Source: a virus
Reading direction: 5' to 3' (one strand)
Virus record (IMG/VR): IMGVR_UViG_3300007765_000056
Span: 1 to 21,851 of that record
DNA length: 21,851 nucleotides
The notes beneath the pieces were generated by a model. That model was not told where the DNA came from. It saw only the letters and a list, made by a program, of their open reading frames with translations, and did not search any database. The first letter of the stretch is position 1, and each line of letters begins with the position of its first letter. This document shows, piece by piece, positions 1-11,036 of the stretch. A program made the position numbers and the translations under genes.

Positions 1-609
1 GCCAATATTGCCATGCGGAAAATGATTATCATGCTCAAAGAGATCAAGCAGGTAGCCAGAGATATGTTGGCATGGATATTTGACGATTGGAAAGAGATAA
101 CCGGAGTAGAAGAGAGTGTTCAGTATTTCTTTTCGGATATGGATCTGTCGGATGAAAAGGAAGTTCGCAAAATGCTCATTGAACTCTATGACAGGAATCT
201 TATTTCTAAAAACACCTTGCAGACCAAAATGGACTTGAATCCCCAGATAGAAAAGACCAACCGCCAGCAGGAAAAAAGTATTGTGGATATGACCTGGGAT
301 GTAAAAGATATCGTTTCCATGGTGCAGCTTGGGATTATGTCGGTGGAGACATCACAGGAGATTTTAGGTTTAGATCCGAAGCAAGAAGGTGAGAGAGCTA
401 AGCGAACAGAAGCCAGTGACATAACGGAAATGTTTGCTTCAGGGAATGTGTTTAATTCAGAACATACATGCGGAGACTGTGTTTATTGGGACGGCAGCAG
501 CAATCATTGCTCTGTCCACCTAACAGAAAAAACGTTTGATGATCGTTTCTGCAGACAATTCTCAATTGGAGAGTTGGATGTCAGCCCAAGCACAGCAGAT
601 ACTATCTGA
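1..609 (+). CDS. phage portal protein, C-terminal part (5' end outside window)
   Basis: The reading frame is open from the first base (A-N-I-A before the first ATG at 13), so this is the 3' end of a longer gene. The portal forms the dodecameric ring at one capsid vertex through which DNA is packaged and ejected. The call rests on the helical, charged C-terminal style, with LYDRNLISKNTL followed by NRQQEKS and an EILGLDP motif, as in SPP1/Mu-type portals, and on the MuF-type gene directly downstream. Near the end there is a cysteine cluster (C-x2-C-x9-C-x13-C, Cys codons from about 469 to 552) with the look of a small zinc knuckle, which is not a core portal feature. The last 32 nt overlap the chosen start of the next gene. 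The portal assignment is fairly sure from context; no conserved portal core lies inside the window. Confidence 0.72.
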   Translation, partial: ANIAMRKMIIMLKEIKQVARDMLAWIFDDWKEITGVEESVQYFFSDMDLSDEKEVRKMLIELYDRNLISKNTLQTKMDLNPQIEKTNRQQEKSIVDMTWDVKDIVSMVQLGIMSVETSQEILGLDPKQEGERAKRTEASDITEMFASGNVFNSEHTCGDCVYWDGSSNHCSVHLTEKTFDDRFCRQFSIGELDVSPSTADTI

Positions 610-3600
610 AACCCTAAAATCATATCAGGCTCGCAATCTTTATACCGAGCAACAGGTGGCCGGTATGGTGGAACTTTTAAAAAAAGGGGAGCTTTCCATC
701 AAATCCCAACTGGTTAAATATTCAGAAATTTCAGATTTAACTCCGGGCCAGAAAGTATTTCAATCTCGGTTAAAAGGATTACAGAGTGATTTAACGAAGA
801 CCCTATCCCAAGTAAAAAAAGACCAGACTTTGCTTATAACCACCGCCACGAAATCAAGTTTCCAAAGCGGAGTCCAAAATGGAATCTCGGAACTCAAAAA
901 TGCAAAATTCCCACGATGGGATATTTTGAGTTCTACAGATGAACAATTATTAGCAAAACAAGTGATGAGCTTGATTGACAGAAACGCATTGGATTTTATG
1001 GTGCGTTTTAATGTTCAGCTGGTTGGCAATGTCCATAAAGAACTTCTAAATGGAATCAAGCAGGGAATTACACTTGGCATCATCAAAGGCGATTCTATTG
1101 CAACGATCTCCAAAGGCTTGGGAAGTATCATTACTGACCCTGCTTCATTTAGAAGAGCAGGCAAGACTGTATTTAAGACCGCACAGCAAAGGTTAGAACT
1201 CATTACCCGAACGGAAACCTTAAGAGCCCACAATCAGGGCAGACTCAAATTCTTCGATACCATAAACGTTCGGCGTGTTAAATGGATGGCGGTGGGAGAT
1301 GAAAGGATGTGTCCGGTCTGTGGTGGACTCGATGGGAAAGAATTTAATATAGACAACATGCCACCTATCCCTGCTCATCCGGCCTGTCGCTGTACCACAG
1401 TGGCAGCCAGAGCCAGAGTTTGTAAAGATACTCTAAAAGCTTACAGTGATTTAAAAATAGAAACGATTTTGACAATTCCACTAACTGCGGTAGCAGACAA
1501 GAATGTTGATTGCATTTTAGTCCCGGAGCAGATCGAAGAGCTTGCTAAACATGCCAAACAGGAAAAGTCTCACTTAAATAAAATCATTCAGGATGGTAAG
1601 TACAGTTTACTCAATGGCAAGACACTCCAAAAGCTTGCTCAACAACGTGGGATAGCCGTCACCAGAAGCAAATTGGATATGATCAAACTTTTAGATCCGT
1701 TAGAACCGGGTTGGGATCTTAATGCCATGAAAACCAAGTCATTGAAAGTGTTAATGAAAAAGCATCACATCTCTGTTTTGCGAAGTAAAGATGATCTAGT
1801 AAAACTTCTTAAAGAGTGGGACAAAATTCATCAGATACAGATACCGGATTATGGAAAATGGTCAATCTTAAAACTCCGTGATGAAGCAAAAGCAAACGGT
1901 ATCTCGGTTATGCGCACCAAGGATGACTTAATTAAGATGCTGGATTCTATTGAGCCGGGTGTTCCCCACTCTCATTTAAAAGGGAATGCATTACAATTAA
2001 AATTAAAAGAATACAATATCGGCAAGGTGAGAACCAAAGATGAGCTTATTGGACTGCTCACCGGCAAAGCAAAACAGGGACAGGCTATTTCTAAAGCGGA
2101 TGATCTAATCAAGAAGCAATTAGCTGACCAGATCAAAAAAGCCAAAAAAGAATTAGATGAAATTATAGATATTTTAAAGCCCCATGAGATTATCGCTAAC
2201 CCCACACAGCTGGATGACTTCATGAAATCCTATATCAAAGGCTATGAGATACTAGCCAAGAACAACAAAAATCTCCTGCCAGAAGATATGGGTGCTTACA
2301 TCGCCAAACTGGACTCTGCTTTTGACACTTGGGATAATTACATCCAATCTTTGAAATCCGTCCAGCTTAAAAAAATCGTCAAACAGGCGGGCTTGGAAAA
2401 ATGGCAATGGATGAACAAAGACGAGATGATCATCATGCTTACTGCCAAGGATACAGCCAGCAAAGAAGCAGCCATGGAATCGGTTCTCATCAAATGGGAG
2501 AAATGGAGTCTTAAGCATGGTGGTAAGGGGATTAAATCAAAACCCAAAATCACAAAAGTTGATATCCCTAAAGTTGAAGTTCCCAAAGTTGATGTCGGAA
2601 AACCCATTGGCTGGAATAAAGTGGACAGCGATTGGGTGGCTTACGAGAAAACAGATCCGTTTAAGTTTCAAGGCAGGGCTGATATTGACGGAGCTCATAC
2701 CAAGTATTTCTTTACTGATAAGCAAGGTGACAAGTGGCTGTTTAAACCGGTGAGCGAAACATTCCGGGCACATGGGGATGAGGTGGCTTACCGCATTGGA
2801 AGGCTCATTGATGATCAAGCGGTGGATGTGAGATTTGTTCAGTTAAATGTTCCAGGCAGAGGGAATATGAAAGGCTCTATCCAGAAATGGAAGACCGGGT
2901 TAAAAGATGAATTTGATTTTAGAAATACCAATGTAAGCAAACTCACAAAAGATGAATTAGAACAACTCCAAAGAGAACACGTGATTGACTGGCTTATTGG
3001 GAACCACGATTCTCATGGGAAGCAGTTTATTAGGCATAGCGACGGTCAGGTCTATGGGATAGACAAGGGACAGCTATACAAATTCATGGGCAAGGATAAA
3101 CTGGATATTGACTACTGGCCGAATGAACGTTGGGGTGAAAAAGAACCGATTTACAATACCATCTTTCGCAGCTTTCAAAACAAAGAACTCAATGTGGATT
3201 TGAATGCATCACTTCACTATATCAAACAGGTTGAGCAGATTACAGATGATGCATTTTTAGACATTTTAAAACCCTATGCTGAAGGACGATTCGGGAAAAA
3301 TAGTGCAAATTTAAAAGCATTCTACCAGCAGGCTCTTCATCGTAAAAATCACATTAGAGAAGATTTTGAAGAATTCTATTCCAGAGTCTTATCCAAAAGA
3401 AACGGCAAGAAAACCAAATTCAAATTTGAAGAAGTAAAAACAGGGAAAGTAAAACTTACCAAGGAAGCGGAAGAGATTGTGGATGATGCAGTTGAAGCGG
3501 GATGGCAAGGAAAAGCGTTACCTCTGGATGGGGATGACATAGAAGATTTAAATGGTCTGGTCTATGTAGAGAAAATCAAAGGAACAAACAAGACTCAGGT

Positions 3601-5167
3601 AAACCTAAGAATGAAAGTCAGACCTGAGTCTGAAAAGAAATTGCTGTCACTTTTGGATGATTCTTTAGATACCATAACAGATATAAAAGGACAGCCATTG
3701 AAGGAGGATTCATTTTACAATGATATTCTTGCCGGGGTTAAAACCTTGAACCATCATATTAAAGATGGTGACTTTGCTTATAACGATAAAACGTTAAAAA
3801 TCATCCGCCGCTATCAACGGGAACTTCGAACATTAAAGAAATCATCCGACCCGGAAATATCCCAGATGGCACAGCATTACTTAAAAGCAGTGAATAAAGT
3901 TTTAAAAGGGGTCAAGGAGAATAAGAAATACACTGGAAGATTTACACAGTATCTCCGCAAGACTGATGTACCGAAACCCAAAAAGAAACAGACACTTCCC
4001 TTTAGAAAACAGAAAGTCTTATATGAACACAAGCAAAACAAAAAAGGTGACATCATCATTGAAAAAACCAAGGATGATGATTTAAGAAAGGTTATGAGAA
4101 GAGATACTGCAAAAGATGGATTGGAATATCGGATTGATCTGGGGGATGGTGTAGAAGCAGTTTATAAGCCGTGGCATGACAGAAACTATTATGCTCACCA
4201 AGGAGAGCTGGAACTGAAAATTACCGGAAGCCCGAATAGTAAAACCATTGAGTCTCTCATTGACAAATTAAATAAATTGGGATTAGATGGACGCTTGGCC
4301 TCAAAGACAGATCAGGAACTCATGTATTTACACAAACAGGCCTATCTGATTAAGGAAGATATGGAGCCCGGGTATAAACATCTGATGAATAAACTCAATA
4401 ACTCAAGTGCCACAAAAGAAGAGCGTATAAAAGCTATGAAAACATATTGGGCAAGTAAATTAGGCGTGAATGATATCTCAAAGCTTCCCGACTATAATCC
4501 CTATGGTGAATATTCATTGAGTTCAAACCCTGCACGTAAAAAGGTGTTTAACAAAACAGCCGGTTATAAAAATACATTTAGGTTTGATGTAAGTGCAAAA
4601 GAATTAGATCAAGAATTGGATGGGTTGGGGTTATATCATAAGGTTACCAGAGGACGAGATATGAGCAATACCATTGATGCGGTTCTTGCAAATAACGGTG
4701 CATTTGTGTCCACAGTTGAAAAGATCAGGATGGGGGTTCCGGTTGGGGGAATGAGTCCATTAGATGATATGGGTAGTGGCGGAGCCTCTTACTTTTTTAC
4801 ACGGATCAGGCAGTTGCCAAGTACCCGGGAAGCGGGTGAAGTGGGAATTTATTTTAAGAAGAAAATGATTCGCAGATTAGATGCTATTACCTACGATGCG
4901 GATAAATATGGAAGGGTGACTGGGAGTTCCGTGAGAGATAACCGATATCATAATCTGAATATGTTTAAGACCATCGCCAGAAGCGGAAGATCAGATGAGA
5001 CGATTTTTAAAAACTCAGTTACATTACTGGATAATGTTGACTATATCAATGTCTATGGCAGAGACAATAAAAACAAACTCGTTGCAGTATTTAATAAACA
5101 CGGAATCAAAAAACTACCGGATGGTCGTCGAATAGAAGACGTAATTTTGGTTATGGGGAAAAGATAA
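578..5167 (+). CDS. giant MuF/SPP1-gp7-type head protein with SAP-like repeats, HipA-like kinase domain and ART-like C-terminus
   Basis: About 1529 residues, against roughly 300-500 for an ordinary MuF/gp7 minor head protein, which binds the portal inside the capsid. The start at 578 has GGAGAG just upstream; an in-frame ATG at 536 has no Shine-Dalgarno site. The N-terminal ~290 residues end in the family signature CPVCGGLDGKEF (C245, C248) and PAHPACRC (C270, C272). Five SAP/HeH-like helical repeats follow (about 342-376, 379-415, 425-461, 465-496, 592-625), each with a T/R-K/S-K-D-x-L/M-I-x-L-L core. Residues about 678-900 resemble HipA/PI-kinase-like proteins: FKP (K723), E735, the catalytic-loop motif LIGNHDSHGKQF (D811, H813) and a metal-binding-like IDKGQ (D829). 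The C-terminus (about 1340-1529) has YH (H1354), GGASYFFTR (Y1405) and DETIF (E1474), spaced like the H-Y-E triad of ADP-ribosyltransferases. The MuF call is firm, the kinase call likely, the ART call tentative. It resembles the MuF polymorphic toxins known from temperate phages. Confidence 0.85.
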   Translation: MSAQAQQILSETLKSYQARNLYTEQQVAGMVELLKKGELSIKSQLVKYSEISDLTPGQKVFQSRLKGLQSDLTKTLSQVKKDQTLLITTATKSSFQSGVQNGISELKNAKFPRWDILSSTDEQLLAKQVMSLIDRNALDFMVRFNVQLVGNVHKELLNGIKQGITLGIIKGDSIATISKGLGSIITDPASFRRAGKTVFKTAQQRLELITRTETLRAHNQGRLKFFDTINVRRVKWMAVGDERMCPVCGGLDGKEFNIDNMPPIPAHPACRCTTVAARARVCKDTLKAYSDLKIETILTIPLTAVADKNVDCILVPEQIEELAKHAKQEKSHLNKIIQDGKYSLLNGKTLQKLAQQRGIAVTRSKLDMIKLLDPLEPGWDLNAMKTKSLKVLMKKHHISVLRSKDDLVKLLKEWDKIHQIQIPDYGKWSILKLRDEAKANGISVMRTKDDLIKMLDSIEPGVPHSHLKGNALQLKLKEYNIGKVRTKDELIGLLTGKAKQGQAISKADDLIKKQLADQIKKAKKELDEIIDILKPHEIIANPTQLDDFMKSYIKGYEILAKNNKNLLPEDMGAYIAKLDSAFDTWDNYIQSLKSVQLKKIVKQAGLEKWQWMNKDEMIIMLTAKDTASKEAAMESVLIKWEKWSLKHGGKGIKSKPKITKVDIPKVEVPKVDVGKPIGWNKVDSDWVAYEKTDPFKFQGRADIDGAHTKYFFTDKQGDKWLFKPVSETFRAHGDEVAYRIGRLIDDQAVDVRFVQLNVPGRGNMKGSIQKWKTGLKDEFDFRNTNVSKLTKDELEQLQREHVIDWLIGNHDSHGKQFIRHSDGQVYGIDKGQLYKFMGKDKLDIDYWPNERWGEKEPIYNTIFRSFQNKELNVDLNASLHYIKQVEQITDDAFLDILKPYAEGRFGKNSANLKAFYQQALHRKNHIREDFEEFYSRVLSKRNGKKTKFKFEEVKTGKVKLTKEAEEIVDDAVEAGWQGKALPLDGDDIEDLNGLVYVEKIKGTNKTQVNLRMKVRPESEKKLLSLLDDSLDTITDIKGQPLKEDSFYNDILAGVKTLNHHIKDGDFAYNDKTLKIIRRYQRELRTLKKSSDPEISQMAQHYLKAVNKVLKGVKENKKYTGRFTQYLRKTDVPKPKKKQTLPFRKQKVLYEHKQNKKGDIIIEKTKDDDLRKVMRRDTAKDGLEYRIDLGDGVEAVYKPWHDRNYYAHQGELELKITGSPNSKTIESLIDKLNKLGLDGRLASKTDQELMYLHKQAYLIKEDMEPGYKHLMNKLNNSSATKEERIKAMKTYWASKLGVNDISKLPDYNPYGEYSLSSNPARKKVFNKTAGYKNTFRFDVSAKELDQELDGLGLYHKVTRGRDMSNTIDAVLANNGAFVSTVEKIRMGVPVGGMSPLDDMGSGGASYFFTRIRQLPSTREAGEVGIYFKKKMIRRLDAITYDADKYGRVTGSSVRDNRYHNLNMFKTIARSGRSDETIFKNSVTLLDNVDYINVYGRDNKNKLVAVFNKHGIKKLPDGRRIEDVILVMGKR

Positions 5168-6028: not shown

Positions 6029-6126
6029 TTGTGAGAAATTGAAATAATGTCTTAAATTCTTTGCGACGAAGAAGTAGCGTTATCCTGAATTTGTAAGGAT
6101 AAAAGCGACAGAGCGGAAAAATTTGA

Positions 6127-6168
6127 CCCGCCGGTGTTTGAAGAGAAGTTAAACACTGCGGGTTTTTT
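6127..6168 (+). terminator. Rho-independent terminator after the MuF gene unit
   Basis: CCCGC (6127-6131) pairs with GCGGG (6158-6162) and GTGTTT (6134-6139) pairs with AAACAC (6151-6156), separated by a small internal loop. The terminal loop is 11 nt. Six T residues follow at 6163-6168. This would end or attenuate the transcript from the portal/MuF side in the middle of an otherwise co-directional late operon. Confidence 0.75.
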
Positions 6169-6173
6169 GTTTT

Positions 6174-6208
6174 ATCCCGTGAAATCTGAAAGAATATTTC
6201 ACCGGGAT
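6174..6208 (+). other. imperfect inverted repeat (stem-loop) upstream of the methyltransferase-protease gene
   Basis: ATCCCGTGAAAT (6174-6185) is complementary to ATTTCACCGGGAT (6196-6208) apart from one bulged C, with a 10-nt loop. No T-run follows, so it does not look like a terminator. It could be an operator, an RNA processing site or the 5' end of the next mRNA's leader. Confidence 0.5.
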
Positions 6209-6256
6209 TATATGACCCACCGTTAGGCCTGACCAGGCTCCCGCAAAACCGATATC

Positions 6257-6261
6257 AAGGA
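6257..6261 (+). promoter_or_regulatory. ribosome binding site that supports a TTG start
   Basis: AAGGA lies 7 nt before TTG at 6269. There is no ATG or GTG between the in-frame stop at 6230-6232 and this point, so the TTG is the best available start for the long gene that follows. Confidence 0.65.
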
Positions 6262-6268
6262 TTCGGAT

Positions 6269-9200
6269 TTGCAAAATATTCCAGATATAGAAGTAGCAGA
6301 GTTTCTTGGCACGGACTTTCTGTCCTGTGAGATATTAGATGCTATTGCCCAAAAAGGGGATGACGTTGAAGAGTCTTCTGAACTACCGAAGTATATCACC
6401 AATTACATCGGCTCAAAGCAGAAGCTCATCGATTGGATCTGGCAGAATACGCCGGAAGACGTTAAGTCAGTCTTTGATGCATTTGGCGGGTCCAATGTTG
6501 TGGGATTCTTATATAAACGCAAAGGCCTTAAGGTCTTTACCAATGACCAATTAAAATATTCCTACCATATATCCAGAGCCATCATTGAGAACAATTCTGT
6601 TACGCTTTCTGATGATGAGATTGAAAACCTTGCTCAACCCAAATCCAATGCCGGCGATTTCATTCAACGCAATTTCAAGCACACCTTTTTTACACCTGAA
6701 GTTTTAAATATTTTAGATAGCCTGCGGGCAAACATCGACACCCTCAAAGGATACAAAAAAGACATCGCCCTTTTTGCATTGGGTAAAACCTGTATCTCCG
6801 GTAAGGGTGGTTTTGGACATTTCTCTTCTACCACCATGCATGGCAAACGCAGGTTTACCAAAAACCAGTTTATTGAACTCTATAAATCCAATTTAAAACG
6901 CATCAGCGACCTGGTCTTTGATAATGGACAGGAGAACAAAGCTTATAACGGTGAGATATTAGATATAGCCCCACAAGTAAAAGCAGACCTGGCTTATTTC
7001 GATCCTCCTTATGCCACCCATTTTTCCACCACCAATTATGAGACTGCCTACCATTTCGTGGAAGGTCTTATGACCATGTGGAAAGGCAAAGAGATTAAGG
7101 AAGATTCCAAAACAAAATCTTATCAAGTCTCATCCAAAACAGTAACTGAAAAAACAGCCAATGAGTTTTTTGAAAATTACTTAAACGCTTCCAAGCATAT
7201 CAAATACTGGATCATCTCATATCGAGATAATGCTTACCCGTCCGAGCGGAAGATAAAGACCATTATAGATGACTTGAATAAAGATTCACGGATGAAAAGT
7301 CGTGATCATCATTATTCTTTATCATCTGCACACGGAGAAAACAGCGATGCCAAGGAACATATCTTTATCTGCGGTCCAAGGGGGTTTTTGAATCAGGCTA
7401 AGGCGAACGCTGAAACGGAAGAAGAAATAATAGCCGCAAAAGGCACAAAAGACACAGAAACTGTAGAAGAAATACTAATTGAAGAAGATTTTCTTTTTGC
7501 GTTAGCAGCTCGTCGCAGTGGTTATGAGAATAAACATACGGAAGATAAAACAAGAGTCTCCGGATATATGGGCAGTAAATATTTTGTTTTGGATTGGATC
7601 TGGCGGGCTGTTCCAAAAGAGATAAGAAACAACCCAAATGGCAAGGTGTTCTTTGATGCATTCTGCGGTGGAGCCAATGTGGCTTATTTCTTCAAGCAGA
7701 AAGGATTCAAGGTAATAACCAATGATTCACTTGATTTTCCCACCCATATTGCAAAAGCCGTTATTGAAAATAGTTCCGTTACCCTGACGGATGAAGACAT
7801 AGAAATCCTGTTAAAAGAAAACAAATCAGCCGGGGATTTTGTGGTGAAAACATTCCACGGTTATTATTACACAAAACCCATATTAGAGTGGCTGGATAAC
7901 ATGTATGCCAATATCCAGAATCTAAAGGGATATAAAAAAGATTTGGCACTGTCTGCCATGGGTGCAACGGTTAAAGCCAAGGCACTTTTCGGAGAGTTTA
8001 AACGGAGTAAAAAAGGACTTAAAACATCTATTACAGAAAATAAGGCTAAAGACGATCGCTTTGGCAGATCTTCACTTGGAAACTTATCTGTCAAACAATT
8101 TGAACACACATTTAAATATTATGTAAAGAAATTCAATTCTCTGGTTTTTGATAACGGCCAGGAGAATAAAGTATACAAACAAGATACCTGGGATTTAATC
8201 CCGAAGGTAAAAGCCGACCTTGCTTATTTCGATCCGCCTTACGTAACAGAGTTTGAAGCCAACGATTATGAGAATGCCATGCATTTCGTGGAAGGCCTGA
8301 TGACTATGTGGAAGGGTAAAGAAATTCAGGATAATGTCTTCAGAAATTATAAATCAACAACGAAGTATTCCAAAAAAACATATCCAGATCAATTCAAAGA
8401 TTTAATCGGACTCTCACAAAAACAAAATAAACACCTCTTAATCTCATATCGTGACCACGCCTATCCCACCAAAAGTGAAATCAAATCATTCTTAAAAGAC
8501 AATTATCAAGAGTCGTCTGTCAAAGAGATTGAAGTAGAGTATCGCTTCGGGAAGAAAGATTCTAAAGCTGGTGGGAAGTATGCGAAGGAACTTCTATTCG
8601 TGGCATCTAAACCATTATCCAGTACCAGAAGTAACAGTCAGGAAGCGGAACGATTATGTCATACCACACTCACCTGTGATGCTCATCTAATTTCAAAAGC
8701 AAAAGAGGGTGACCCGCAGTTTACTTTTATATTGACTCATGCGGGCACCAATTCCAATGGCGATCATTTTCTTGCAAGTGAGCTCAAAACCAAGCATGAA
8801 ACCGTTGTTGAGAAGAAAATCGATTTAAAACATTCCCAGGATATTACAGACATTGTTGGTGGTGTCATCTCATCGGAATACAAGGAAGATAATAGCGGTG
8901 TAGTGGAATGTGTAGGCGAACTTTATGTACAGGATAATCCCCACGCCCAGCTTGCTTATAAACTCTTGAAAAAAGGGATTATAAAACAGGTGTCGATGGA
9001 ATGTGATTATGAGGAGGGTGAATGCTCTATTTGTAAAAAAAGGGTTAAAGCAAGATCAGATGATTGCATTCATTTAAAAAAGCATAAGGGAAGAGACTAT
9101 AAAGGCAAAAAAGTTTATGAGATTTTGCACAACATCACTTTTACCGGTCTTGGATTATTAGACAGAGCCGGTGCGGATGAACATGCAAAAATACTTGCAG

Positions 9201-9811
9201 TCGCTAACATAAATAAGGAGGACAGTCACATGTCAGAAAACAACAATCCCGATCAAAGCGGGAATAATAAGCAGACAGAAAAGGACACAGGATTGTCCGC
9301 ACTGGAAGCTAAATACAATGATCAGTCTGAAAAACTCAAAGGACTTCAAAAGGAAGCAGATCAAAAAGATGATCGCATTAAAGAGTTAGAGTCAGAACTG
9401 GAAAAAACAGCCAAGGATTTGGAAAAGGCACAGAAGCAAATCGAATCCATGGAAAAGGAAAAACAGGCAGCGAAACAAAAGGCTAAAGCTGAAAGCATCT
9501 TGAAAAAATGGGAGTCCATGGGTCGTTCATTTGAGACGGAAGAAGAAAAAGAAAAGGAATTAAAACGTCTTGCCGGTTTAAGTGAAGATGCGTTAGGTGC
9601 TATTGAAGAGACCATTGGTTCTTTTGATTCTTTAAAAAGCGAAAAAGCTGAAATAGAGAACAAGAAACAAGAAGAGAAAAAACAATCTCAAGCAAACATG
9701 CGGGCAAAAGCAAATGTAAAGCCGGAATCTGTGGATGACGTGGAAGTCACCTTAAAAGATGAATTGAAAAATGGTTTTGTAGCCGCATACAACTCAAGGA
9801 TAGGAGGATAA
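6269..9811 (+). CDS. fusion: two D12-class DNA adenine methyltransferase domains + prohead protease + scaffold
   Basis: 1180 codons in one open frame. The first methyltransferase has YIGSK (46-50), the SAM motif FDAFGG (69-74) and catalytic DPPY (245-248). The second, a diverged duplicate about 400 residues later, has YMGSK (433-437), FDAFCGG (462-468) and DPPY (655-658). Both share HFVEGLMTMWKGKEI after DPPY, so both should be able to make N6-methyladenine. Residues about 815-980 are a phage head maturation protease of the XkdF/assemblin-like fold, with LTHAG (822-826), candidate catalytic His855 (DLKHSQ) and Ser909 (QVSME), an inserted Cys/His knuckle (C919, C922, C933, H935) and the closing FTGLGLLDRAGADEHAKI. 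From Met988 the protein is a Glu/Lys-rich coiled coil typical of scaffolds. The gene lies exactly where protease and scaffold belong, before the capsid genes. The joint from methyltransferase to protease has no internal start codon that I can find. The fusion of methyltransferases to this module is unusual. Confidence 0.88.
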   Translation: MQNIPDIEVAEFLGTDFLSCEILDAIAQKGDDVEESSELPKYITNYIGSKQKLIDWIWQNTPEDVKSVFDAFGGSNVVGFLYKRKGLKVFTNDQLKYSYHISRAIIENNSVTLSDDEIENLAQPKSNAGDFIQRNFKHTFFTPEVLNILDSLRANIDTLKGYKKDIALFALGKTCISGKGGFGHFSSTTMHGKRRFTKNQFIELYKSNLKRISDLVFDNGQENKAYNGEILDIAPQVKADLAYFDPPYATHFSTTNYETAYHFVEGLMTMWKGKEIKEDSKTKSYQVSSKTVTEKTANEFFENYLNASKHIKYWIISYRDNAYPSERKIKTIIDDLNKDSRMKSRDHHYSLSSAHGENSDAKEHIFICGPRGFLNQAKANAETEEEIIAAKGTKDTETVEEILIEEDFLFALAARRSGYENKHTEDKTRVSGYMGSKYFVLDWIWRAVPKEIRNNPNGKVFFDAFCGGANVAYFFKQKGFKVITNDSLDFPTHIAKAVIENSSVTLTDEDIEILLKENKSAGDFVVKTFHGYYYTKPILEWLDNMYANIQNLKGYKKDLALSAMGATVKAKALFGEFKRSKKGLKTSITENKAKDDRFGRSSLGNLSVKQFEHTFKYYVKKFNSLVFDNGQENKVYKQDTWDLIPKVKADLAYFDPPYVTEFEANDYENAMHFVEGLMTMWKGKEIQDNVFRNYKSTTKYSKKTYPDQFKDLIGLSQKQNKHLLISYRDHAYPTKSEIKSFLKDNYQESSVKEIEVEYRFGKKDSKAGGKYAKELLFVASKPLSSTRSNSQEAERLCHTTLTCDAHLISKAKEGDPQFTFILTHAGTNSNGDHFLASELKTKHETVVEKKIDLKHSQDITDIVGGVISSEYKEDNSGVVECVGELYVQDNPHAQLAYKLLKKGIIKQVSMECDYEEGECSICKKRVKARSDDCIHLKKHKGRDYKGKKVYEILHNITFTGLGLLDRAGADEHAKILAVANINKEDSHMSENNNPDQSGNNKQTEKDTGLSALEAKYNDQSEKLKGLQKEADQKDDRIKELESELEKTAKDLEKAQKQIESMEKEKQAAKQKAKAESILKKWESMGRSFETEEEKEKELKRLAGLSEDALGAIEETIGSFDSLKSEKAEIENKKQEEKKQSQANMRAKANVKPESVDDVEVTLKDELKNGFVAAYNSRIGG
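9215..9221 (+). promoter_or_regulatory. internal Shine-Dalgarno site for the scaffold
   Basis: A perfect AAGGAGG, 8 nt before the in-frame ATG at 9230, inside the long methyltransferase-protease-scaffold gene. Its strength matches the sites before the decoration and capsid genes, which argues for independent initiation here. Confidence 0.8.
9230..9811 (+). CDS. capsid scaffolding protein from an internal in-frame start
   Basis: 193 residues, in frame with and nested in the 3' end of the long gene. The first ~25 residues are polar and disordered (rich in N, Q, S, D). A long charged coiled coil follows (about 30-95), then a helical region and a short basic stretch before the C-terminal segment ending NSRIGG. 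This is the usual build of a procapsid scaffold, whose C-terminus binds the coat protein. The arrangement copies lambda C/Nu3 and related phages, where a protease and its scaffold share a frame and the scaffold is made in excess from an internal start. The stop overlaps the Shine-Dalgarno region of the decoration gene. The coding sequence is certain; separate initiation is inferred from AAGGAGG and the known precedent. Confidence 0.75.
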   Translation: MSENNNPDQSGNNKQTEKDTGLSALEAKYNDQSEKLKGLQKEADQKDDRIKELESELEKTAKDLEKAQKQIESMEKEKQAAKQKAKAESILKKWESMGRSFETEEEKEKELKRLAGLSEDALGAIEETIGSFDSLKSEKAEIENKKQEEKKQSQANMRAKANVKPESVDDVEVTLKDELKNGFVAAYNSRIGG

Positions 9812-9812
9812 G

Positions 9813-10169
9813 ATGTCAATAACAGCATTACATCCAGGACTGGCTTACGGGTCAGCAACAGCAGCAGAAGATTTGACTGCTGGAGAGTTTGTAAAACTCT
9901 CTGGAGCAGATCTCTTTTCAAAAGTAATCGATGCGTTAGATAATCCTTTTGGGGTTGTGTATCGTGATGCAGCATCAGGTGAGTATGTCACCGTTTACAC
10001 CCAAGGCGGTGTTTACGAGACAGAAAGTTTTACTGCAGGCATTACAGCCGGCGATGAACTAGAAGTAAATCCAACTACTGCCTTGCTTCAAAAGGCAACA
10101 GATGGTAAGAAAATAGCTCAAGCCATCTCGGTTACCTCAACAGAACTAAAATTCAAACTCGTGATATAG
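9813..10169 (+). CDS. capsid decoration-like protein
   Basis: 118 residues starting one base after the scaffold stop, with TAGGAGG upstream. It looks all-beta, with GEFVKLSG, a GVVYRDAASGEYVTVYTQGGV stretch and LKFKLVI at the end. This resembles the DUF2190/lambda-gpD-like small head proteins that often lie between protease/scaffold and major capsid genes and cap the shell surface. The N-terminus is flexible and Ala/Thr-rich, as in many decoration proteins. Position is the strongest support; I see no unique motif. Confidence 0.7.
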   Translation: MSITALHPGLAYGSATAAEDLTAGEFVKLSGADLFSKVIDALDNPFGVVYRDAASGEYVTVYTQGGVYETESFTAGITAGDELEVNPTTALLQKATDGKKIAQAISVTSTELKFKLVI

Positions 10170-10178
10170 GAGGCGATG

Positions 10179-11036
10179 ATGGAAACAACAAATGTATTAA
10201 CAACTGAATATATGGATTCAATGGCATCACTTATGAGTCAGGCACTTGAAAGTGATGAAGGCTTGAATGCATTAGCTGCTGCAATCTTACCCCCTGTGGA
10301 GATGGAGATTGAGCGGAAAGAGATTTCTTCTCTGCTTCTGACTCGTCACGCATTACCAGCAGGACAACCTGCGAAATATGTGAAACGCAAAGGGGTTAAA
10401 GCCTATTGGATCTCTCCTGAAGGAGAAGCTGTTCATTCGGAAGCAAGTAAGGAAGAAGTAGAATTTCCTACGGTCCGAGTTCATTCTGCACCGATTATTG
10501 ATGTGGCCTCTTTAAAAAACGGCAATGTCTGGGATTTAACAGATCTGCAGACTTCAGCTGGCAGAGAGATCAGAAAGACCATTGATGCATACACACTCAA
10601 AACCCTTTCTGAATCAATCCCTACAGAAAACATAATCGAACAGACCGGAACAACCCTTTCTGAAGGTACACTGAATCAGGCAATGAGTATCTTGGAAGAT
10701 AAGGAACTCACCGTCAAAACTCTTCTGATGCGTGGGGCTCGGTTTAATGATTTACGCAGTTGGGATTTGGATCCGCAAACCAAGAATGAACTCCGTACAA
10801 AAGGTGTAATCAAAACATTCGGCGGAGCCAATATATTAACAACCGCTACGGCTGATATGAATGAGATTATCATTTTACCAGACGAAGAGATTGGAAAGAT
10901 GGCTATTAGACAGAAACTCATTAGTGAGACGGTCAAACAGACCTTGAAGTTCAGAGTTGGCTGGCTGATCTGGATGGAGATTGCTATTGGCATCTTACGT
11001 CCTGATCTTTGTGTGAAAATCAAATTGGTGGGTTAA
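10179..11036 (+). CDS. major capsid protein, HK97 fold
   Basis: 285 residues from the second of two adjacent ATGs. AGGAGG lies 5 nt before 10179 but only 2 nt before 10176, so the second start is favoured. The layout fits an HK97-type coat: a helical N-terminal arm (about 1-45), an extended E-loop-like segment with paired Lys/Arg (about 60-100), a long spine-helix region (DLQTSAGREIRKTIDAYTL), and the closing P/A-domain strand with WLIWMEIAIGILRPDLCVKI. It directly follows protease, scaffold and decoration genes. No obvious propeptide cleavage site is visible, although a protease is present. Confidence 0.85.
   Translation: METTNVLTTEYMDSMASLMSQALESDEGLNALAAAILPPVEMEIERKEISSLLLTRHALPAGQPAKYVKRKGVKAYWISPEGEAVHSEASKEEVEFPTVRVHSAPIIDVASLKNGNVWDLTDLQTSAGREIRKTIDAYTLKTLSESIPTENIIEQTGTTLSEGTLNQAMSILEDKELTVKTLLMRGARFNDLRSWDLDPQTKNELRTKGVIKTFGGANILTTATADMNEIIILPDEEIGKMAIRQKLISETVKQTLKFRVGWLIWMEIAIGILRPDLCVKIKLVG

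Follow-up and report, generated by a model that had tools for sequence, protein, structure and literature searches.

A single uninterrupted reading frame of 1180 codons, which runs on the plus strand from a TTG start at position 6269 to position 9811, is present in a stretch of viral DNA comprising positions 1 to 21,851 of IMG/VR virus record IMGVR_UViG_3300007765_000056 (this whole stretch of 21,851 nucleotides is termed the window). An AAGGA Shine-Dalgarno (SD) site is located at positions 6257-6261, 7 nucleotides upstream of the TTG codon, and L003, a close relative with 73% identity across the alignment, also keeps the start sequence. The encoded protein carries, in order, two DNA adenine methyltransferases, a predicted head maturation protease, and a predicted coiled-coil scaffold (Table 1). 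This layout had been proposed in an initial annotation of the window, and it is borne out by the reading frame, Pfam matches, fold comparisons, and predicted helices. The domain order stands as first described, the domain limits have been slightly corrected, and two features that had been overlooked, an internal scaffold start at 9230 and a zinc-finger insert in the protease, can be added.

The complete protein, the isolated protease, and the two methyltransferases separately served as queries for relatives in IMG/VR and among bacterial genomes. The search for the same domain order that the initial annotation had suggested yielded 135 complete fused frames, a count that includes repeat fetches of the same contig and reduces to 48 lineages at 90% identity. 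Two near-identical contigs that derive from further metagenomes (L001 and L002) carry the same frame at 1192 codons. Together with the fused relatives, some of which reside in complete bacterial chromosomes, these contigs exclude a frameshift or stop at 8600-8720 of the kind that would divide the frame into two genes.

Table 1. Positions of the fused gene, its parts, and neighboring head genes in the window
Feature	Positions	Strand	Basis
Fused gene: methyltransferase 1, methyltransferase 2, head maturation protease, scaffold	6269..9811	+	One open frame; L001/L002; 135 complete fused homologues
Methyltransferase 1, residues 37-369	6377..7375	+	FDAFGGS at residues 69-75; DPPY at residues 245-248 (nucleotides 7001-7012); PF02086 E 2.5e-25
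Methyltransferase 2, residues 430-784	7556..8620	+	FDAFCGG at residues 462-468; DPPY at residues 655-658 (nucleotides 8231-8242); PF02086 E 5.3e-18
Predicted head maturation protease, T4 gp21/assemblin-like, about residues 800-985	8624..9229	+	PHROG profiles, AlphaFold2 model, Foldseek, invariant columns
Internal SD site AAGGAGGA before the scaffold domain	9215..9222	+	Anti-SD pairing -12.2 kcal/mol
Predicted nested scaffold product, about 193 residues, from internal in-frame ATG	9230..9811	+	Coiled coil and conserved C-terminal tail
MuF-type minor head protein with long C-terminal part	536..5167	+	PF04233 5.7e-15
Cement/decoration protein	9813..10169	+	PF09956 3.9e-9
Major head protein	10176..11036	+	phrog_2522 3.6e-60

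Domains and starts of the fused gene

Both halves of the N-terminal 780 residues match the Pfam MethyltransfD12 profile separately, at 90.1 and 66.1 bits against a gathering score of 22. The FDAF.GG-type motif and DPPY are intact in both halves, and the motif columns are invariant among relatives. Each half therefore combines a PF02086 match with the FxGG (S-adenosylmethionine, SAM) and DPPY motifs that characterize D12 N6-adenine methyltransferases. The best match in the Protein Data Bank (PDB) for the predicted structure of the whole protein is E. coli Dam, and neither the full-length sequence nor the profile of methyltransferase 1 matched any solved structure in sequence searches. The segments around the GFGHF motif of the first copy and the FG.F.RSK motif of the second differ between the two copies and are stable within each, which suggests that the two enzymes have fixed and different target specificities. 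In phages from many phyla, these segments, which putatively face the target, hardly vary. Relatives with only one methyltransferase carry a domain of the first type.

Profile matches and the modeled structure identify a head maturation protease at residues of about 800-985. Most lineages are matched by PHROG head-protease families, with phrog_18299 detected in 45 of the 48 (best E 5.5e-6). An AlphaFold2 model built from the 48 sequences (predicted local distance difference test score, pLDDT, 84; predicted template modeling score, pTM, 0.75) has T4 gp21 and herpesvirus assemblins as its top Foldseek matches in the PDB (E 0.014-0.05, probability up to 1.00), and a viral library returned Bacillus phage G gp19 at 1.4e-17 along with many annotated prohead proteases (1e-17 to 1e-8). 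The gp21/assemblin-like fold is accompanied by conserved putative catalytic His and Ser residues: H855 (8831-8833), S909 (8993-8995), D965, and D970 are invariant in 18 double-methyltransferase forms, and the matching columns hold across the 48 lineages. Between S909 and D965 lies a zinc-finger-like insert of the form C-x2-C...C-x-H (C919, C922, C933, and H935; about 9023-9073). Pfam matches to C2H2 zinc fingers occur in the protease of 18 of 21 members, and a sequence search of solved structures with the protease profile returned almost only zinc-finger proteins. The scaffold domain (residues 988-1180) is predicted to form long helices at residues 1011-1135, and the last 190 residues are mostly helical.

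At the junction between protease and scaffold, an in-frame start codon preceded by an SD-like sequence is present in all 48 lineages, as is characteristic of nested genes of the lambda C/Nu3 type; in the window it lies at 9230. This start is ATG in 41 lineages, GTG in four, and TTG in three, and the SD sequence is GGAGG or GGAG in nearly all of them, including ggagg in the seven GTG/TTG lineages. Among all in-frame ATG codons, the one at the junction is best paired in 33 of the 41 ATG lineages and ranks within the top three in 40 of them. Of the 40 in-frame start codons in the window gene, the one at 9230 likewise pairs most strongly with the anti-SD. Between the last methyltransferase and the protease, even the best start averages only -3.7 kcal/mol, compared with -10.2 kcal/mol for the junction start, and a separate protease start was rejected because no strong candidate is conserved across lineages. 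Because the scaffold domain has its own internal start and SD site, whereas the protease lacks any start of similar strength, the gene is expected to yield both a free scaffold and a methyltransferase-protease-scaffold fusion, as lambda C/Nu3 does.

Conservation and genomic setting

The two-methyltransferase form of the fused protein spans approximately 1160-1356 residues and the one-methyltransferase form approximately 780-860, and several representatives are found in cultured bacteria, including in complete chromosomes. Among relatives of the methyltransferases there are 137 fused frames, 15 frames cut by contig ends, seven frameshifted copies on four contigs (L192, L211, L246, and L299), and one chimera. 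The frameshifted copies may reflect sequencing errors or prophages in decay. In the chimera (L219:3656-5572), methyltransferase 1 with the leader and part of the linker is located inside an apparently different, tail-type gene, which may reflect recombination or a misassembled contig. Beyond these frameshifted copies and the chimera, no free-standing members of the methyltransferase families were seen in IMG/VR, and no relative was found to have the protease without a methyltransferase or the reverse. Close relatives also carry no other cargo domains ahead of the same protease, and no variable cargo slot is seen. In Desulfobacterota, the protease is present in 10 of 395 genomes, in frames of 802-819 or 1288-1294 residues except for one broken copy, and D. 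alkanivorans has both the one- and two-methyltransferase forms. The fusion is thus near-obligatory in these tailed phages, a widespread group, most of it uncultured, that occurs in sulfate reducers and also in assembled genomes classified as Planctomycetota and Calditrichota, among others.

Selection has acted on all of the enzymatic parts. The median ratio of nonsynonymous to synonymous substitution rates (dN/dS) for 72 two-methyltransferase pairs, which are not independent of each other, is 0.063 for the first methyltransferase, 0.073 for the second, and 0.060 for the protease. For 109 similarly nonindependent one-methyltransferase pairs, the values are 0.020 for the methyltransferase and 0.042 for the protease. 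The methyltransferases are clearly as constrained as the head protease and more so in single forms, and values of 0.02-0.07 rule out the possibility that they are decaying passengers. The fusion proposed in the initial annotation is therefore real, conserved, and, judging by selection, functional.

Two further elements vary among the relatives. An extra module (EIRYRV..SFRR..LEG..GVSIIIGRLK...QAYRF.K..NPDGWT..KAKEWI.EHE) without a Pfam match is inserted between the methyltransferases in L003, L012, and L058 and before the protease in L044 and L045. A short N-terminal leader, TDLERLAFLLEADAEL, is kept in most lineages (e.g., L004, L012, and L046) and is replaced in the window and in L003. By analogy with the signal of P1 DarB, this leader could serve in capsid targeting or processing. 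T4-type (L/I)XE cleavage sites were also considered at the linkers, but only the F[LI][LI]E motif of the leader is widespread, and because the window and L003 lack it, no cleavage sites are assigned.

The fused gene is embedded in head genes. A MuF gene lies upstream in most relatives whose contig extends that far, and in dereplicated relatives whose contig continues, the cement gene is directly downstream and is followed by the major capsid gene. Beyond the capsid gene, the window carries neck, tail sheath, tape measure, baseplate, and endolysin genes, which indicates a contractile-tailed phage. The same cassette is present in the complete genome of Desulfosarcina widdelii PP31, in a seemingly complete prophage with integrase, terminase, portal, MuF, capsid, sheath, tape measure, and baseplate genes. 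In profile scans, no cognate restriction nuclease was found beside the fusion, and the matched neighbors are head and tail genes; no link between the fused methyltransferases and the terminase was seen.

The MuF-type protein of the window is itself long (1543 residues), with approximately 1250 residues beyond the MuF domain that are matched in part by phrog_6577. There are weak hints of a HipA-like kinase segment (E 0.02, below the cut-off) and, in the D. widdelii counterpart (L330:12986-17539), of an endonuclease VII-like segment, and the MuF-type protein may be a second head protein with added enzyme parts. The 240 noncoding nucleotides ahead of the fused gene (6029-6268) fold unusually strongly (z -3.7 for 6029-6300) and contain a terminator-like hairpin at 6132-6158 with a T run. 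In L004, L053, and L056, a GC hairpin followed by T's occurs just ahead of the start codon. No Rfam match to 6029-6268 was obtained at E values up to 1, and the stretch is possibly an attenuator or a transcription boundary.

Possible roles of the methyltransferases

The window gene is best explained as a head-maturation gene with two products, shared by a family of phages and prophages with contractile tails; its two starts would give a long and a short product. This explanation as a whole is judged to be probable, if by no means secure. By analogy with lambda C/Nu3, herpesvirus UL26/UL26.5, and T4 gp21, abundant free scaffold made from the nested start at 9230 would build the procapsid core, and the rarer long product would enter the procapsid via its scaffold tail. 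Because no start is seen that would give a protease without a methyltransferase, the methyltransferases should enter with the protease, and each protease should carry one or two of them. The gp21/assemblin-like protease would then mature the head, digest the scaffold, and cut at flexible linkers. The methyltransferase domains, at approximately 40 kDa, would be too large for the usual exit pores and would remain with the DNA. Finally, the DNA would be methylated at fixed target sites, whether intracellularly ahead of packaging, in the course of packaging, or once it has been ejected into the next host. These last two steps, retention and methylation, are the least certain.

There are precedents for parts of this scheme. 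The T4 prohead contains about 55 copies of gp21 and many internal proteins whose N-terminal peptides are removed by gp21 (PMC9958956), P1 carries about 40 copies of DarB in the capsid of each virion (PMC9024508), and in lambda, C, Nu3, and the portal form an initiator complex (PMC3224144). The predicted entry of the methyltransferases into the procapsid, which the initial annotation had proposed, is supported by the layout of the gene, with its nested scaffold start and no comparable start ahead of the protease. Release, retention in the virion, delivery, and DNA methylation are more conjectural. Such an arrangement suggests that enzymes able to mark viral DNA are enclosed in each new phage head as it is built.

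A stronger version of this proposal can be offered tentatively. The protease-scaffold might be an obligatory enzyme carrier, which would be a new means of loading a phage head with enzymes, such that every procapsid holds DNA-adenine methyltransferases of fixed specificity that mark the genome at packaging or on entry into the next host, possibly as an essential maturation step and not as optional anti-restriction cargo. Because the methyltransferases are constant across hosts, a role intrinsic to the phage seems at least as likely as one in an arms race.

Several observations weigh against the dual-product model. The window protease scores 18.0 bits against the Pfam S78 profile (PF04586; cut-off 21), with weak matches in 6 of 21 members, and its fold matches in the PDB are remote (best E 0.014). 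The scaffold is identified from its position, coiled coil, and conserved tail, without a family match. The F[LI][LI]E leader motif, present in 37 of the 42 leaders examined, is absent from the window and L003. In synonymous-codon shuffles, the internal SD signal arises by chance at a mean rate of approximately 17% per lineage, and the lineages are related. Because the per-lineage shuffles are only modestly surprising, support for the nested start comes from its recurrence at one position and from the exchange of ATG, GTG, and TTG there. Survival of the methyltransferases through proteolysis and their exit with the DNA are conjectural steps of the model.

The methyltransferases might instead be confined in their action to late replicated DNA within the infected cell, in which case the fusion would give late and stoichiometric expression, and the phage protease or host proteases would remove the enzymes early and leave none in the head. 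This is biochemically the simplest way to methylate the DNA, the interdomain linkers are predicted at low confidence, as for disordered segments, and the gp21 family removes N-terminal extensions, with T4 gp21 cleaving its own N terminus (PMC9958956). Nevertheless, a separate operon gene would suffice for simple late expression, and still the single frame, without a good start before the protease, has been kept in 48 lineages. In addition, prohead proteases normally become active only once they have been assembled into the procapsid, as in T4 (PMC9958956). An exclusively cytosolic role is considered somewhat unlikely.

One form that carriage in the head could take is the one proposed in the initial annotation, in which the methyltransferases are anti-restriction cargo, ejected with the DNA as are P1 Dar or T4 IPI, that methylates DNA in the new host. 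Packaged Dar proteins shield the DNA of P1 against type I restriction (PMC9024508), and folded domains inside the head would be expected to exit with or after the DNA. However, the methyltransferase sequence is fixed across many hosts, and near-constancy across many phyla is atypical of arms-race cargo. Methylation of a whole genome before a restriction enzyme acts would also be a race, and no helicase or other Dar parts are present here. Protection of incoming DNA survives as one among several possible functions, and an unlikely one.

P1 pac cutting depends on methylation, and this analogy raises the possibility that the methyltransferases belong to the assembly or packaging machinery, where they might, for example, bind or mark a packaging site and thereby restrict entry to methylated or phage DNA. 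Constraint on the methyltransferases that equals that on the head protease, and exceeds it in single forms, would be accommodated by such quality control, as would putative target-facing segments that are near-constant across many phyla, unlike changing anti-restriction cargo. Against it, no link to the terminase was seen, the model gives no role to the second methyltransferase, which is absent in many relatives, and no target specificity could be inferred. This role is distinctly unlikely on present evidence. An artefact in which two or more genes were joined by sequencing or assembly error, for which the frameshifted copies in a few relatives might be cited, is already refuted by 135 complete fused frames, including ones in complete chromosomes, with low dN/dS throughout, and its probability is negligible.

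In the fused gene, DNA modification is tied directly to the assembly of the head. Should the head indeed carry the methyltransferases, the fusion would provide a simple encoded means to load enzymes into the capsid at a protease-like copy number, and whether phage DNA is methylated during packaging or after ejection would become testable. The D. widdelii PP31 prophage makes the fused-gene system accessible to experiments.

Comparison with known systems

The fused architecture has been cataloged before. PHROG_27806 (798 positions) matches residues 404-1179 of the window protein over 765 of its 798 positions at 972 bits and all 48 lineages over the protease; it represents the one-methyltransferase form of the fused protein. 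The family is labeled "DNA methyltransferase" in category "other," with the protease, scaffold, and nested start unannotated. The annotation can be corrected accordingly, to a protein that supplies an entire family of phages with its predicted head protease and scaffold. The statement in the initial annotation that no phage system with this layout has been described holds for the open-licence literature searched, in which no methyltransferase fused to a prohead protease or scaffold was found. It must be tempered because the architecture had already been clustered, unnoticed, in PHROG_27806 and because packaged anti-restriction proteins such as P1 Dar and T4 IPI are a known idea. None of the isolated phages in a 50,697-record collection carries the fusion, and the matches there are partial.

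The best match in that collection is a protein of Erysipelothrix phage phi1605 that has 34% identity to methyltransferase 1. Like M.FokI, the phi1605 protein is a type IIS twin methyltransferase, with two D12 domains per chain as in the window protein. However, it is located beside its partner, the AlwI nuclease, and not among head genes, and it has no protease or scaffold; the window fusion has no adjacent cognate nuclease.

Lambda gpC/Nu3 and herpesvirus UL26/UL26.5 likewise encode a protease and a scaffold in one frame, with the scaffold also made from a nested start. Neither includes a methyltransferase, and lambda gpC has a different protease fold; the herpesvirus assemblins are closer in fold to the window protease. 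In T4, gp21, the scaffold gp22, and the internal proteins are products of separate genes, and gp21 lacks the zinc-finger insert. Even so, T4 gp21 is the best PDB fold match to the window protease and the working model for core entry and cleavage (PMC9958956).

With P1 Dar, the window system would share the idea of a DNA methyltransferase carried in the phage head, as suggested here by the genes. DarB is a separate 250-kDa protein with an N-terminal targeting signal (PMC9024508) and is fused to a helicase (PMC5512222), not to a protease or scaffold. The methyltransferase-SF2 helicase fusion and the DarA, Hdf, and Ddr partners that define the Dar system have no counterpart here, as there is no helicase in the protein and no Dar match among the scanned head genes. 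Polyvalent proteins are also multidomain and virion-associated and may include adenine methyltransferases and MuF fusions, but no fusion to a prohead protease or scaffold has been reported among them (PMC5512222). Overall, a nested protease-scaffold gene and a head-carried methyltransferase are both known kinds of system, and it is their fused combination that is new, with a real chance that it represents more than a variant of either.

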